Notes under the pieces: generated by a model
What the model saw: the letters and a program-made list of their open reading frames with translations, nothing else
Database searches by the model: none
What the model was told of the DNA's origin: nothing
Translations under genes and position numbers: made by a program
From: a virus
IMG/VR virus record: IMGVR_UViG_3300021335_000025
Span: 1-52,902 of that record
DNA length: 52,902 bases
Strand: one strand, 5' to 3'
Part shown: positions 34,214 through 43,987 of the stretch, one piece after another
Numbering within the stretch: the stretch's first letter is position 1
How the letters are laid out: each line of letters begins with the position of its first letter

Positions 34214-37200
34214 TTACATTCCCCAGATATTATAAATTGCGGCAACTGTTACCATAGTTTGTTGATTATCATCAAATGAATTGATAGTTGGTATTGAAGT
34301 TGTTCCAGTTTTTGTCATTCCAGTTTTCATTGTTTTGGATTGATTTTCTCCACCAGGCATTGGTATTATTGTTGTGGATGATCTAGATTGTGGTATACTT
34401 GGAATTGTTGGAGTTTTTGTTGGTGTAATTTGTGGTTGAGTTGGTGGAGTATATGAAGAACCTCTATTTTCTCTTCTATTTTGGAATGTTGTCTGTAATA
34501 ATGTTTTTCTTGGTTGATTCGACTGAGAAGATGTTGGAGTTAATGACTTAAAAGATGGTCCATTTCTTTTTGCATTTTCAGAAGCAACTATAACTCTTTT
34601 TTCAACCTCTTCTGGAGAAAGACCTTCTGCTCTTGCCTTTGCTCTTGCTTCTTTTGCAGCCTCAAATACATGTGGCATTGATGCAGCAGTCTTTGTAGGA
34701 TCCAATATACTTGAACCACTACCTCCCATTCCTCGTACTAACTGTTTAATATTATTAGTATTATTATTAGTATTATTAGTAGTAGTATTAGTAGTATTAT
34801 TCATTGATGCAGCAGTCTTTGTAGGATCCAATATACTTGAACCACTACCTCCCATTCCTCGTACTAACTGTTTAGTAGTATTAGTAGTAGTATTAGTAGT
34901 ATTATTCATTGATGCAGCAGTCTTTGTAGGATTCAATATACTTGAACCACTACCTCCCATTCCTCGTACTAACTGTTTAGTAGTATTAGTATTATTATTA
35001 GTATTATTAGTAGTATTATTATTAGTAGTATTATTATTAGTATTATTAGTATTATTATTAGTAGTATTAGTAGTATTAGTAGTATTAGTATTGGAAATAA
35101 AGTTGGAAGCTGAAGAGGAACTTATATTCCTTTTTCCAGTGTAAGAACCATCTGCTAATGCATCAAGATAAAACTGTTTTATTTTTCCACCTTCTATTTT
35201 AAAGTTTGGATCATATTTTGCTTGTATAGAACTACTTGAAGATGAGGTGTTATCAGAATCTACGGCAACTGTTCTAAGATACTCTGGTGCCGCAGCAGGA
35301 TTATCTGCGCCTGGCATAAGTGTAACTCCCTCATCATCCTTATTTTTTCCGGGCATAGCAAACTCTGCTGCTGCTTTTGCCGCGAAAATTCGTGCTTCTT
35401 TTTCAGTTACATTTAATTTTTTCCAATAATCATAATTTGCTTTATAAGACCTGGAATACCAGAACCAAAGATCTGCATCTTTATGAGATTCTATTTTTAT
35501 TTTTTTAGAATCTAGAAGACTCATATTATCATAATCATTAAACCAGTTTTTTAATTCTATAGAGTTTGTAACCAATTTTCCTTCTGGACTCTGGGGATTC
35601 ACTCCAGTAAATTTATCATTCAATCCTAAGAAAGAACTTTGAACCAACTTATTAATTTGTTTTACAATATAAGTATCTCCAGTTTTTTCATATCTTATGA
35701 CATAATTTTTCTTTTCTTTATCACCAACCTTTATGTGTGTTGTATGTTTTGTATTTTTCACATACTCATCTGGAATTAACTGTCTGCCCTCTTTAGTTTC
35801 AACTTTTGGTGCATTATTGGGAGGATCACTTTTCTTTAATTTATATTCTATTGAACCTTTCGATTCAGACTGTTTAGTTTCATCTTTTGGTGCATTATTG
35901 GAAGAGTCACCTTGATTTAATTTATATTCTGTTGAACCTTTCGATTCAGACTGTTTAGTTTCAACTTTTGGTGCATTTTGAGTGGGAGTAGTTGTTGAAG
36001 AACCTCCGCCTTTGTGAGCATCATTTCTACGACCTCCAACAGAACCACCAGTATTCATTGCCTCAATGTTAATATCACCAATACTTGCTGTTCTTCTTTC
36101 AGATCTTCCACCAAACATATAATTAACTTTATCCAAATATTCTTCTCCACCCAACCAATTAACTGCTCCGGGTTTCAAAACATATTCTCCGAGAGAAAGT
36201 GCAGTTAAATATTGATCTGGTCCTAAACCAGATATTTTTGTATTAACTGTATTATTATTAACTACACCACCTTCAATTGAAACAGTATCATTTCCAATAG
36301 TTGGAGTTTTTCTTTGGGGTGGAGTTGTGGACCCACCCGTATTCTTAGTAAGAACGGGACTAAGTTTAGTAATAGATCCACCCGTATTCTTAGTAAGAAC
36401 GGGACTAAGTTTAGTAATAGATCCGCCCGTATTCTTAGTAAGAACGGGACTAAGTTTAGTAATAGATCCGCCCGTATTCTTAGTAAGAACGGGACTAAGT
36501 TTAGTAATAGATCCACCATTAAACTTTACATTAACTCCAGGAGCAGATTGTTGTTTTTGTTGTGGTTCTGCTGGTTCTGGTTCTCTATTTCCAACAATGT
36601 CCGGTGCTTGAAGTTCGGGTATTTTTGGAATGTTTGGAATAACTCCCTTATCTGGATCATTTGGCAATTGGGGTGCACCAGGAATGAACTTGAGTGCTCC
36701 ATTTATCATATCAATAAATCCACTTATGGCAGAATTTATAGAATCAATAAATCCTCTTACTGGTTGAATAAGTTTATTATCAATAAATTGTAGAATACTA
36801 TTAAAGACTCCAACAATACCATCAAACAAATCTTGTATTGGCTGCAAAAGAATTTTTGGATTTTTGATAACAGAAAATAACCAATTTACTGCAGACCCTA
36901 AAAGAACCATCATAATAAAGTTCTTTATAGTATCAAAAATATTCGTAAATGGTTTTATAACTTTATCGAGTAATTTTGATCCTTTTGAAGATTGTTTTTT
37001 TGATTCTAATTTATTCTCTTTTCCTGCCTTTTTTTGTTTATTTTTTTCAATTCTATTTTTTTCTCCTGATTTTTCGTTTGCCTGTGATTGCTTTTTGAAA
37101 ATATTTACAATATCTTCTGTAAGACTACGAATCTCTTTAACTATACTTAAAAGATCTCCGTTTAAAAATTTGTATAATTTATCAACTGTATTATCTTTTT

Positions 37201-37585
37201 GATCTTCTATATCATCAATTGGTTCTACCCGACTTGCTTTTATTGCTTCTGGAGAACCTGCTAAAAGTTTTGATGAGTCCGTTGGTTTATTTTGTTCTCT
37301 ATTTCTTCTTCCAAAGAAACTATCTACATTTACTGTTTTCTTTGGTGCAGTAGTAAATGTAGATTCCTTTAAATCTCTTATTCTTTTTCTTTCATTGGCA
37401 ATTTTTGCCAAATCTTCTTCGGATAACTTTAACTTTTCATCGAAAGCACCTTTTGCGATTGCTTCCTTCATTAAAGTCATATATTCATCATATTCTAAGT
37501 CAAAGTTATCCTCCAACCCAAGAATTTTGGCAATTTCTGGATCTATGGTTTGGGTTTTAGTTTGGGTTGGATCCTCGGCTGCCAT
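34214..37585 (-). CDS. Tape-measure-like large tail protein
   Basis: A 1123-residue protein with a charged helical N-terminus (~1-210). A hydrophobic segment (FIMMVLLGSAVNWLF, ~225-245) aligns with the same region of the triple-hydrolase protein. Amphipathic helices follow. Four tandem 15-residue repeats (NTGGSITKLSPVLTK) lie near residues 358-418. Then comes ALSLGEYVLKPGAVNWLGG, which resembles the GE[FY]V...AV..LG motif seen near the C-terminus of phage tape-measure proteins. The rest includes the KIEGGKIKQFYLDALADGSY module, Asn/Thr-rich linkers and three copies of KQLVRGMGGSGSSIL. It lies just downstream of the gp26/small-ORF pair, the usual position of a tape-measure gene. The assignment is moderate. 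Confidence 0.7.
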   Translation of the reverse strand: MAAEDPTQTKTQTIDPEIAKILGLEDNFDLEYDEYMTLMKEAIAKGAFDEKLKLSEEDLAKIANERKRIRDLKESTFTTAPKKTVNVDSFFGRRNREQNKPTDSSKLLAGSPEAIKASRVEPIDDIEDQKDNTVDKLYKFLNGDLLSIVKEIRSLTEDIVNIFKKQSQANEKSGEKNRIEKNKQKKAGKENKLESKKQSSKGSKLLDKVIKPFTNIFDTIKNFIMMVLLGSAVNWLFSVIKNPKILLQPIQDLFDGIVGVFNSILQFIDNKLIQPVRGFIDSINSAISGFIDMINGALKFIPGAPQLPNDPDKGVIPNIPKIPELQAPDIVGNREPEPAEPQQKQQSAPGVNVKFNGGSITKLSPVLTKNTGGSITKLSPVLTKNTGGSITKLSPVLTKNTGGSITKLSPVLTKNTGGSTTPPQRKTPTIGNDTVSIEGGVVNNNTVNTKISGLGPDQYLTALSLGEYVLKPGAVNWLGGEEYLDKVNYMFGGRSERRTASIGDINIEAMNTGGSVGGRRNDAHKGGGSSTTTPTQNAPKVETKQSESKGSTEYKLNQGDSSNNAPKDETKQSESKGSIEYKLKKSDPPNNAPKVETKEGRQLIPDEYVKNTKHTTHIKVGDKEKKNYVIRYEKTGDTYIVKQINKLVQSSFLGLNDKFTGVNPQSPEGKLVTNSIELKNWFNDYDNMSLLDSKKIKIESHKDADLWFWYSRSYKANYDYWKKLNVTEKEARIFAAKAAAEFAMPGKNKDDEGVTLMPGADNPAAAPEYLRTVAVDSDNTSSSSSSIQAKYDPNFKIEGGKIKQFYLDALADGSYTGKRNISSSSASNFISNTNTTNTTNTTNNNTNNTNNNTTNNNTTNNTNNNTNTTKQLVRGMGGSGSSILNPTKTAASMNNTTNTTTNTTKQLVRGMGGSGSSILDPTKTAASMNNTTNTTTNNTNNNTNNIKQLVRGMGGSGSSILDPTKTAASMPHVFEAAKEARAKARAEGLSPEEVEKRVIVASENAKRNGPSFKSLTPTSSQSNQPRKTLLQTTFQNRRENRGSSYTPPTQPQITPTKTPTIPSIPQSRSSTTIIPMPGGENQSKTMKTGMTKTGTTSIPTINSFDDNQQTMVTVAAIYNIWGM
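34676..34979 (-). repeat. Three 73-bp repeats separated by Asn/Thr-rich low-complexity DNA
   Basis: Copies at 34676-34748, 34802-34874 and 34907-34979 encode KQLVRGMGGSGSSIL(D/N)PTKTAASM. They are separated by stretches made of ATT/AGT triplets that encode poly-Asn/Thr. The low-complexity run continues to about 35095. Confidence 0.9.
35136..35225 (-). repeat. 90-bp segment duplicated at 30539-30628
   Basis: Second copy of the module DNA, in the tape-measure-like gene. Flanking sequence is unrelated apart from low-complexity Ser or Asn/Thr linkers. Confidence 0.9.
36333..36512 (-). repeat. Four tandem 45-bp repeats with internal inverted repeat
   Basis: Units begin at 36333, 36378, 36423 and 36468 and are almost identical. 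Each encodes NTGGSITKLSPVLTK. Each unit contains CCCGTATTCTTAGTAAGAAC followed by GGG, which folds into a hairpin (CCCG/CGGG plus TTCTT/AAGAA). They create long open frames in other frames that are not genes. Confidence 0.95.
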
Positions 37586-37594
37586 GAATTACTA

Positions 37595-37765
37595 ACTCTT
37601 TTGTTGTTGTTTTTGCCTTTCTTCTTCCAAGTGCTGTTCCAATAATGTAACATATACATCACGTTCCCAAGGCATCATATTTTCAATCTCAGTCAATGAA
37701 TATTTATGATACTGAATCAAGGCAAAATTCAACTTATAATAGTTAGCAAGGTCCATATGGACCAT
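37595..37765 (-). CDS. Small tail-assembly protein downstream of gp26 (gp51-position), possibly made by -1 frameshift
   Basis: A 56-residue frame from an ATG at 37765: MVHMDLANYYKLNFALIQYH, then a MMPWERDVYVTLLEQHLEEE motif and a Gln/Lys tail. The PWERD-x-Y-x-x-L-L-E-x-x-L motif is typical of small proteins encoded after tail-assembly chaperones and of short hub-assembly proteins. In T4, gene 51 follows 26, but T4 gp51 is much longer, so the symbol is left empty. No ribosome binding site precedes either ATG (37765 or 37756). The reading frame is -1 to gp26 and joins it through the slippery site at 37773-37779. The frame ends at a TAG just before the tape-measure-like gene. Confidence 0.75.
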
Positions 37766-37767
37766 GG

Positions 37768-38490
37768 CTATCCGAAAAAACTAGAAAGTCCTTCAAGAAC
37801 AACCTCACTTTCAACTTTAGTATTTGGATTTTTAATAATAGTTGAATAATGTAGTTTTGGCATAGTTTCAAAGAACTTCTCAATTTGCTTAAATTGGGTC
37901 GAGTTCATCTGTTCTAAGAAATCAACCAGTTCTTTCTTGGTTACATCGGAAGAAGCCCAAACTTCCTCAGAATTGTAAATTTTATCAATACAAGAAACAA
38001 TCAAATCAAATGATTGATCCATATTATTTGCATCTGCAGAAAAATCAAAATTACTCTTGATAAATTGTTCAAGTGATGGATACTTCATTTCCATCATCAA
38101 ATTATCATCAATTTTGATTTGATTTGTATGCTCATCATTTCGTTTAATTTGAATTTCATCAATCGCAATTTCTTTTTTTACGGTTGTATCATTATCATCA
38201 GGACAAATTAGATTGACATCAATCACTTCTCCTACTGATTTTCCACGAATGTTAAGAAAGAGATATTCAATATCAAATGTAGGAAGCGTTTCTACTTTAA
38301 CTCCCCTAGTTTGAATGCAGTTTTTAATAACCGTTTTAATTGCAGTTGTGATTTCCTTTGTGTCTTCACTCTCTAATGCAAGAACTAATAGTTTTTCTTC
38401 CCTAACTAAAAATGGTCTATACTTAATGTTTTGTCCAGTTGATGGCAATTCCAACTCATATGTTGGTGTCGAAATCTTTGGTAATGGCAT
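37768..38490 (-). CDS. 26: gp26-like baseplate hub / tail assembly protein
   Basis: A 240-residue protein starting MPLPKISTPTYELELPSTGQ, the hallmark start of the T4 gp26 baseplate-hub family. It continues with KYRPFLVREEKLLVLALESE, a segment shared across the family. T4 gp26 is a little shorter (about 208 residues). It has no membrane segments and is helical in its last third (ELVDFLEQMNSTQFKQIEKF). The last codons read AGT TTT TTC GGA TAG, containing a canonical -1 slippery heptamer. It follows a GATAAATA late promoter 31 bases upstream and precedes the 56-residue frame by 2 bases. A role as tail-assembly chaperone in the lambda G/GT sense is inferred from this arrangement. Confidence 0.85.
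   Translation of the reverse strand: MPLPKISTPTYELELPSTGQNIKYRPFLVREEKLLVLALESEDTKEITTAIKTVIKNCIQTRGVKVETLPTFDIEYLFLNIRGKSVGEVIDVNLICPDDNDTTVKKEIAIDEIQIKRNDEHTNQIKIDDNLMMEMKYPSLEQFIKSNFDFSADANNMDQSFDLIVSCIDKIYNSEEVWASSDVTKKELVDFLEQMNSTQFKQIEKFFETMPKLHYSTIIKNPNTKVESEVVLEGLSSFFG
37773..37779 (-). promoter_or_regulatory. Candidate -1 ribosomal frameshift site (T TTT TTC)
   Basis: The minus strand reads T TTT TTC in phase with gp26 codons TTT and TTC, three codons before its TAG. A -1 slip continues CGG ATA GCC ATG GTC into the 56-residue frame without a stop. The 3' stimulatory structure was not examined by folding. Confidence 0.6.
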
Positions 38491-38520: not shown

Positions 38521-38528
38521 TATTTATC
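38521..38528 (-). promoter_or_regulatory. T4-type late promoter (GATAAATA)
   Basis: The minus strand reads GATAAATA, ending 31 bases before the gp26 ATG. It overlaps the very end of the upstream tail-tube-like gene. The spacing matches the other late promoters in this window. Confidence 0.7.
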
Positions 38529-39393
38529 AACCAATATTTGATGTTCCTCCGAATGGACCAAAATCCCCAATTGATCCATTAATATTTTGCTGTCTTTGAG
38601 GAGGTATATCTAAAAGTGATACATTTGGATTAAAATCAAATCCTCCACCATCTGGTAATGTGTAGGTCGATCCATTCAATGGTTCAATTCCAAAATCAAA
38701 GTTATTACTATTTTGAAATGCTTGTACTTGAGGATTAAAAGGAATATCTATTGCTGATTCTGCTGATGTCGAATAAGGACTAAACTTACTTCTAATCACA
38801 TATCTAGTATATGAAAAGGAAACAGTTACTTTTAATAAATCGCTTTGATCGTAGGAAATTGGAGTTGATGCGATATTGATAGGAAATGCATCTATAAAAT
38901 CATATCCTATTCTATAGTTTGGTGAAGATGTTGAAATGTCCTTTTCAAATTTTAAAAGTTTAATTTTTGTCTTATATGAGAAAGGATAAGTCATTCTATA
39001 AAATGTTGTTGGATCAATATAGTCATTTTGAGTAAAGTAATTTCCTTCACCAACAATAAAACTCATCCAGGCCAAAAAATATTTTAAAGTATTATATCTA
39101 TAATCAATATAAAAAGTTAAATCAATTGTATCGTCATATATTCTACGATATGCCATTTTTTCACTAGTTCCATGATAATCATTATTAGATTCGTGAGTTG
39201 CTAAACTAGATCCTGGAAGACTTGCTTCGCAACAAGATAAATTAATAATCTCCTGTTCCTTTGATAAAGTTACCCCTACAAAACTATTAACCTTTTGATT
39301 TGTTAAAATTTCGACAGAATATACTGAAGTTTGTGCTGGGCGCAATAACTTTTGCTTAATTTCTGACACTTTATAATGTCTAGCTAATCCCAT
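38527..39393 (-). CDS. Tail-tube-like baseplate protein (gp54/gp19 type)
   Basis: A 288-residue protein. After a short N-terminus (MGLARHYKVSEIKQKLLRPA), residues ~50-130 contain CCEASLPGSSLATHESNNDY and MAYRRIYDDTIDLTFYIDYR. The strand and loop order resembles myovirus tail-tube proteins (P-x-x-x-x-x-T followed by a tyrosine-rich R-R-x-Y-x-D strand). T4 gp54, the tube initiator on the baseplate, is itself a tube homologue of similar size. The C-terminal ~80 residues are Pro/Gly/Asn-rich and probably flexible. It is transcribed divergently from gp4. An alternative is a hub protein with a tube fold. Confidence 0.6.
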   Translation of the reverse strand: MGLARHYKVSEIKQKLLRPAQTSVYSVEILTNQKVNSFVGVTLSKEQEIINLSCCEASLPGSSLATHESNNDYHGTSEKMAYRRIYDDTIDLTFYIDYRYNTLKYFLAWMSFIVGEGNYFTQNDYIDPTTFYRMTYPFSYKTKIKLLKFEKDISTSSPNYRIGYDFIDAFPINIASTPISYDQSDLLKVTVSFSYTRYVIRSKFSPYSTSAESAIDIPFNPQVQAFQNSNNFDFGIEPLNGSTYTLPDGGGFDFNPNVSLLDIPPQRQQNINGSIGDFGPFGGTSNIG

Positions 39394-43046: not shown

Positions 43047-43075
43047 AGAATAGCACTGAAACTACTCCTTGTCAA
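43047..43075 (-). promoter_or_regulatory. Sigma70-type promoter for gp32
   Basis: The minus strand shows TTGACA (43070-43075), 17 bases, then TATTCT (43047-43052). The -35 lies in the last codons of the DUF1825 gene. The predicted start is near 43040, 65 bases before the gp32 ATG. Confidence 0.8.
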
Positions 43076-43394
43076 TAGCCTCTTTCATAGTGTCAATGAG
43101 GCGAGTCATATTACTGAAAATCATATTAATATCAGAAGTTTTAGGGATTCCCATCGCCTCAGCAGATTCTAATACTTTTTCCTTCATATCTTTTGCTTCT
43201 GGATCATCCGATAAACTCAATCTAGTATATAGGATTTGTTGCTTTTCGAGAAGTTTCTGTAGCAAATCAACATGTTGAAGTTTTTCTTCTTTGTTCATCA
43301 TAAAGAATTTATAAACATTGTGATATATTTCTTCTTGTAATTCAGAGATTTCTGCCATCTCTGCTCGTACAACTTCTGAGTCGAAAAAACTCAC
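43062..43394 (-). CDS. DUF1825-like cyanobacterial protein
   Basis: A 110-residue helical protein starting MSFFDSEVVRAEMAEISELQ. The start, the length, the central LEKQQILYTRLSLSDDPEAK segment and the closing IFSNMTRLIDTMKEAI helix match what I recall of cyanobacterial DUF1825. That family has no assigned function and occurs widely in cyanobacteria. Its ATG overlaps the gp59 stop (ATGA), so it is translated with the replication genes gp33 and gp59 and probably acts early. Carriage of a host-family protein in a replication operon suggests it tunes a host process, which is inference. Confidence 0.75.
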   Translation of the reverse strand: MSFFDSEVVRAEMAEISELQEEIYHNVYKFFMMNKEEKLQHVDLLQKLLEKQQILYTRLSLSDDPEAKDMKEKVLESAEAMGIPKTSDINMIFSNMTRLIDTMKEAIDKE

Positions 43395-43987
43395 AATACT
43401 ATCTCCTTTAAAATTTTCTTATATTTAAATACATCAATATGTATGAATGGAAAATATTTTGCAATTCTCATTGATACAAATTTCCAAATAGGGTCATCCA
43501 ATTTCTTATCGAAGTTTTTTCTGTATCCAAAAATAGAATCAAGAATAACCATCGTCTCTAAAGATAAATTTCCTTGTAAAAATATCTTTAGTAATCTTGG
43601 ATGACTTCCATTTTTGATAGTAAATAAATCTTCCATTGAATTTTCACTAAAAAGTTTTTCAATTTCTTCTTTAAATACATAAGAAAGAGATTGAGTTCTT
43701 TTTTTCCAAAGAGAAAATCTCTTTTCTCCTTCATTAATTATTTCTCCAATCCATAAAGATTCTGGGTCATTACATAAAACAAAGTTGGCAACAAAAAAAC
43801 TGACAATTTCCTCGTCAGTTTTTTGTCTACTCATTTTTTCAAACCACATTCTATCTTTACGTTTGTAGAATGCTTGCAAAGATGCTTTTACTTTGCCATT
43901 ATATCTCAAATAATCATATTTTGGTTTTGTAAAATGATTCTTGAGGGCAAGGTATGTCTTATAGCAATTCAGGGGATCCAATTTCAA
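43391..43987 (-). CDS. 59: gp59 loader of replicative helicase
   Basis: A 198-residue protein (T4 gp59 is 217). Matching features are the N-terminal NCYKTYLALKNHFT, the YDYLRYNGKVKASLQAFYKR segment (T4 has YDVIKYN...AYQKRRDK), FFVANFVLCNDPESLWIGEI and SLETMVILDSIFGY. gp59 loads the gp41 helicase onto gp32-coated forks and recombination intermediates. It overlaps gp33 upstream and DUF1825 downstream by 4 bases each. It is all helical and has no membrane segment. Confidence 0.92.
   Translation of the reverse strand: MKLDPLNCYKTYLALKNHFTKPKYDYLRYNGKVKASLQAFYKRKDRMWFEKMSRQKTDEEIVSFFVANFVLCNDPESLWIGEIINEGEKRFSLWKKRTQSLSYVFKEEIEKLFSENSMEDLFTIKNGSHPRLLKIFLQGNLSLETMVILDSIFGYRKNFDKKLDDPIWKFVSMRIAKYFPFIHIDVFKYKKILKEIVL

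Follow-up and report, generated by a model that had tools for sequence, protein, structure and literature searches.

A probable programmed -1 frameshift in the gp26 tail assembly chaperone gene of a T4-like cyanophage and its relatives

The gp26 locus of an unannotated marine virus related to T4-like cyanophages very probably encodes a tail assembly chaperone that is made in a short and a long form by programmed -1 frameshifting, in the manner of the G and GT proteins of phage lambda. This assignment, which we base on sequence comparison and which agrees with the original prediction of a shift and a G/GT analogy at this site, is supported by conservation of the slippery signal, by an internal Shine-Dalgarno-like element, by an open -1 frame under purifying selection, by the absence of a start codon from that frame in a third of the lineages compared, and by gene order; the predicted fold of the N-terminal domain is suggestive only.

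The window, that is, the whole stretch of DNA analysed, is the 52,902-base IMG/VR virus record IMGVR_UViG_3300021335_000025. Its nearest annotated relatives are T4-like cyanophages, and its gp26 is 74% identical to that of Synechococcus phage SynMITS9220M01. The features discussed below are the following.

38527..39393, minus strand: tail-tube-family gene directly upstream of gp26, in the position of lambda V (phrog_45 tail tube, E 3.9e-31; Phage_TTP_2, E 2e-15)
37768..38490, minus strand: gp26, 240 aa, putative short form of the tail assembly chaperone (TAC-N, lambda gpG-like; PF12322, E 1e-73; phrog_150, E 2.6e-78; AF2 model with pLDDT 86.5)
37789..37794, minus strand: internal Shine-Dalgarno-like GAAGGA, 8 nt 5' of the heptamer (Glu codon bias)
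37774..37780, minus strand: candidate slippery heptamer T_TTT_TTC, in phase with the 0 frame of gp26 (sequence; conservation of T_TTT_TTN)
37592..37777, minus strand: -1 frame extension, FRIAMVHMDLANYY...MMPWERDVYV...QQKS, T-like domain (TAC-C), starting at about the second slip codon and with its stop at 37592..37594 (open in 68/68 lineages; phrog_634, E 5.8e-28; pN/pS 0.15)
37592..37765, minus strand: the same -1 frame as a free ORF of 57 aa from its first ATG (Shine-Dalgarno match at neither ATG), probably not a separate gene
37750..37763, minus strand: possible hairpin GGTCC-ATAT-GGACC, 10 nt 3' of the heptamer, lineage-specific and optional (weak covariation among 50 relatives)
34214..37585, minus strand: 1123-aa gene directly downstream, in the position of lambda H, a tape-measure candidate (position; weak family matches; internal repeats)

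The slippery site and its surroundings

As had been predicted, gp26 ends on the minus strand with the codons AGT TTT TTC GGA TAG (stop at 37768..37770), which contain T_TTT_TTC in phase. A ribosome that slipped by -1 would read CGG ATA GCC ATG GTC CAT ATG and remain in the open frame of the PWERD motif up to the stop at 37594..37592. The predicted gain of about 59 residues is accurate as a net gain over the 0-frame length; counted from the Phe-Phe pair, 60 residues are added, for a fusion of 299 aa, and the free ORF has 57 rather than 56 residues. The window ORFs of at least 100 aa contain 111 in-phase X_XXY_YYZ heptamers, and since a -1 extension of at least 40 codons past the stop follows from only two of them, the gp26 heptamer goes beyond chance. 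The other one, T_TTA_AAG at about 43411 (window 43062-43411), leads in the -1 frame into a 110-aa gene with a GTG start of its own and a good AAGGAG site, and was rejected as a frameshift in favour of an ordinary overlap.

We collected 248 related loci from annotated phages and IMG/VR and clustered them by gp26 identity, which gave 68 lineages at 80%. Conservation of the heptamer among relatives, on which the original prediction had been staked, is extensive: 64 of the 68 lineages at 80% identity retain an in-phase T_TTT_TTN, as do 28 of the 30 at 60% and 14 of the 16 at 40%, these being raw counts per lineage that ignore shared ancestry, among lineages that reach less than 25% identity. Elsewhere in the same loci, the control, only 20 of 239 FF dipeptides are encoded by T_TTT_TTN. 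The base preceding TTT is T in all 64 lineages, although the residue before FF varies (S in 38, D in 17, A in 6, N in 2 and T in 1). In the record of Stenotrophomonas phage IME-SM1 (L256) the site is hidden, because gp26 ends in another frame than in relatives 99% identical to it; one base of the T run was probably lost there through sequencing error.

The four lineages that lack the canonical heptamer are three of Ackermannviridae and Vibrio phage K361, and the -1 frame is open in these as well. Most Ackermannviridae copies (L012, L177-L194) end with ATT TTC ATT TAA, which yields a conserved A_ATT_TTC, replaced by G_ATT_TTC in some; in most of them no ATG, GTG or TTG appears in the second frame before a point well inside the domain. 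A_ATT_TTC resembles the G_GTT_TTC that is read at the end of T7 gene 10A, which we take to be the T7 frameshift site.

Upstream of the heptamer, 53 of 64 lineages encode Glu-Gly at codons five and four ahead of the first Phe. That Glu is encoded by GAG in 39 of these 53, compared with 27% elsewhere in the same genes (Fisher P 6e-12), and the Gly codon is biased toward GGA or GGG (P 0.005). The result is a Shine-Dalgarno-like GAGGG about 9 nt before the heptamer, present as GAGGGA or GAGGGT in most lineages, at a spacing near that of the internal Shine-Dalgarno sequence that stimulates the -1 shift in Escherichia coli dnaX. Downstream elements are more restricted. In the P-SSM2 group the heptamer is followed 5 nt later by a 10-11 bp stem whose arms hardly vary, covariation is weak for the hairpin of the window and its 5-bp stem, and strong downstream stems are found in 22% of lineages as opposed to 3.7% of control windows. 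These stems are lineage-specific, and a conserved downstream pseudoknot or hairpin is accordingly not supported as a general stimulator.

In the scheme that we infer from these signals, for the frameshift itself as well as for its rate and for the chaperone function, most ribosomes would terminate at the gp26 TAG and yield the short form (TAC-N). A minority would slip back by one base on T_TTT_TTC, with Phe in the P site moving from UUU to UUU and Phe in the A site from UUC to UUU, presumably with help from the internal GAAGGA, to which a downstream stem would add in some lineages. These ribosomes would then read 60 more codons to produce the long form (TAC-NC, 299 aa) with its C-terminal helical domain. 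If lambda is a guide, the tape measure protein may be coated by many copies of the short form and few of the long one, the extra domain of the long form serving to recruit tail tube subunits.

Coding in the -1 frame and alternative readings

In every one of the 68 lineages the -1 frame stays open, for 53-70 residues. Within the window's own group it is under purifying selection: its pN/pS is 0.15, similar to that of gp26 (0.17), whereas the other two frames score 1.3 and 2.05. Profile matches over gp26 (PF12322, phrog_150) and over the -1 extension (phrog_634) place the locus in the T4 gp26/gp51 family, and phrog_634 is matched by 17 of 17 sampled domain sequences, four of which come from T4-type gp51.

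The best surviving alternative, which we nevertheless consider very improbable, is that the small ORF is a separate gene (gp51) whose own ATG is used by ribosomes that terminate at the gp26 stop and reinitiate. Both the window and many relatives offer candidate ATG codons at 9 and 18 nt past the slip, the ORF is annotated as gp51, "baseplate hub assembly catalyst", in P-SSM2 and similarly in others, and KVP40 and phiM9 are annotated with overlapping stop and start. However, in 24 of the 68 lineages, including S-CAM8, neither ATG nor GTG nor TTG occurs ahead of the conserved domain, up to codon 16 past the slip, which makes independent initiation impossible there; ATG itself is absent before the domain in 30. 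Shine-Dalgarno matches at small-frame starts are almost absent across lineages, and in the window neither ATG has one, in agreement with the original prediction. A separate gp51 gene would also leave the conservation of T_TTT_TTC and of the GAG codon unexplained. Because of the 24 startless lineages, independent initiation is rejected as a general mechanism; the two small-frame ATGs of the window leave room for reinitiation in this phage alone.

Even less likely is transcriptional slippage, in which RNA polymerase would add or drop bases on the T6 run so that some mRNAs carry the fused frame. The run at the site comprises six or seven T, and six is short for polymerase slippage. The conserved codon phase and the internal Shine-Dalgarno-like element point to ribosomes instead, and the open frame is kept in lineages that have no T run. 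Least credible is the view that the -1 frame arose by decay or chance and has no function: nothing turned up in its favour, the selection test refutes it, and it is contradicted by a frame open in 68 of 68 lineages and by the homology of this frame to the C-terminus of T4 gp51. Programmed -1 frameshifting by ribosomes is the reading that we follow below.

T4 gp26 and gp51

T4 gp26 and gp51 are homologous: each matches full-length PF12322 (E 9e-64 and 4e-52, respectively), and hhalign profile comparisons agree on the relationship (98.7-99.8%). The extra C-terminal domain, to which the -1 extension is homologous, is found in gp51 only. In T4 the genes 26 and 51 are separate, lie on opposite strands and have no frameshift, whereas the window has one copy of gp26 with the second domain in its -1 frame, and not the T4-type two-gene arrangement. 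In T4-type gp26, FF is encoded by TTC TTT (for example, GAG TTC TTT) or has been lost, none of the complete copies is slippery, and the -1 frame does not stay open. The proposal that gp26 is the T4 counterpart of G and the fusion that of GT thus fits the window but does not extend to T4 itself, whose gp26 appears no longer to shift; in T4-type phages two genes, 26 for the short form and 51 for the long form, would replace the frameshift.

In an unrooted tree, the frameshifting proteins, T4-type gp26 and T4-type gp51 each fall on one side of a branch (97/90, 100/99 and 100/99, respectively); as the tree has no root, the direction of change, from frameshift to two genes, is a presumed one. A tentative reading of the family's history is that the T4-like superfamily began with frameshifting, driven by a conserved cassette of recoding signals (GAGGG as internal Shine-Dalgarno-like element, polyU heptamer and lineage-specific stem), that the site diversified to a T7-gene-10-like X_XUU_UUC in Ackermannviridae, and that in the T4 group a gene duplication (26 and 51) took the place of the shift. 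Neither this cassette nor the site of Ackermannviridae may have been described before.

Published lists place T4 gp26 and gp51 among the chaperones of hub assembly, gp51 being required for assembly but absent from the particle (PMC3004832). The role of these hub assembly proteins has long been unclear, and both can now be tested as tape measure chaperones. T4 gene 28 (L001:8349-8882) has weak profile similarity to T4-type gp26 and is a possible distant relative; we do not claim gp28 as a third member of the family, its hhalign score being 48.5% (E 2e-4) with T4-type gp26 and less than 4% with the others. In Citrobacter phage Moon (L268:11607-13245) a gp27-like and a gp28-like gene are annotated jointly as a frameshifted, "GT-like" chaperone of the tape measure. 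The assignment looks mistaken, and T4 gp27/gp28 was rejected as a frameshifted chaperone, as profile comparison detected no relationship between gp27 and the gp26 family.

The abstract of Vladimirov et al. (2022) reportedly names genes 26 and 51 and states that several T4-like groups keep frameshifting. The novelty once seen in a shift at a T4-type gp26, for which the original prediction knew of no description, is therefore not sustained, frameshifting in T4-like phages having been published already (Vladimirov et al.). Two papers cite this work, one (PMC12846349) for polyT signals of frameshifting known from the TAC-N genes of T4-like phages, the other (PMC10885494) for T4-like phages in which a short gene is accompanied by a longer, fused one. 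A review from 2016 describes the G-T frameshift as conserved in long-tailed phages except T4 (PMC5009743). A frameshifted tail chaperone in T4-like phages is known in kind, and the gain here lies in breadth and in the detail of the signals, the two chaperone forms being traced in an unannotated marine virus and across 68 lineages. The public annotations examined mostly miss the frameshift, and even in that of Stenotrophomonas phage Moby the two genes stand apart. The small cyanophage "gp51", which annotations widely give as a gene of its own, omit or label hypothetical, ought to be merged with gp26.

Comparison with lambda and other systems

A tail-tube-family gene lies directly upstream of gp26 in the window and in 55 of 63 lineages, and this gene followed by gp26 and its -1 frame matches the lambda order V-G-T-H. 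The 1123-aa gene downstream has no match to a tape-measure family, and the gene after it (1292 aa) has partial tape-measure matches. At window 36333-36517 and 34676-35092 the 1123-aa gene also carries about four near-identical copies of a 45-bp repeat (GGSITKLSPVLTKNT) together with long Asn/Thr-rich repeats, which are unusual in a presumed tail protein.

The AF2 model of gp26 residues 1-96 has as its joint top match the HK97 tail assembly chaperone 2ob9, with Z 7.9 and rmsd 4.0 over 84 residues, a Z below 8 being one that can arise by chance. Among the PDB fold matches listed for a T4-type gp51 model there is no chaperone, and comparison of the gp26 profile with the sequences of solved structures gave no credible match.

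The likeness to lambda G/GT, whose mechanism has been described (PMC5009743), consists in a short form and a putative -1 frameshifted long form, encoded in lambda between the major tail protein (V) and the tape measure protein (H) and here between a tail-tube-family gene and a candidate tape measure gene. The two systems differ in the heptamer, GGGAAAG in lambda and TTTTTTC here, and in the length of the T part, 144 codons in lambda as opposed to 60. Vandenendeviridae and Andersonviridae have tail assembly chaperones with another slippery sequence, in other phage families. In Bacillus phage 0305phi8-36, orf143/orf144 were proposed in 2007 as a two-gene G/GT chaperone with no frameshift (PMC2147016); they belong to an unrelated lineage and resemble the arrangement of T4 but not that of the window, where a single gene and its -1 frame would supply both forms.
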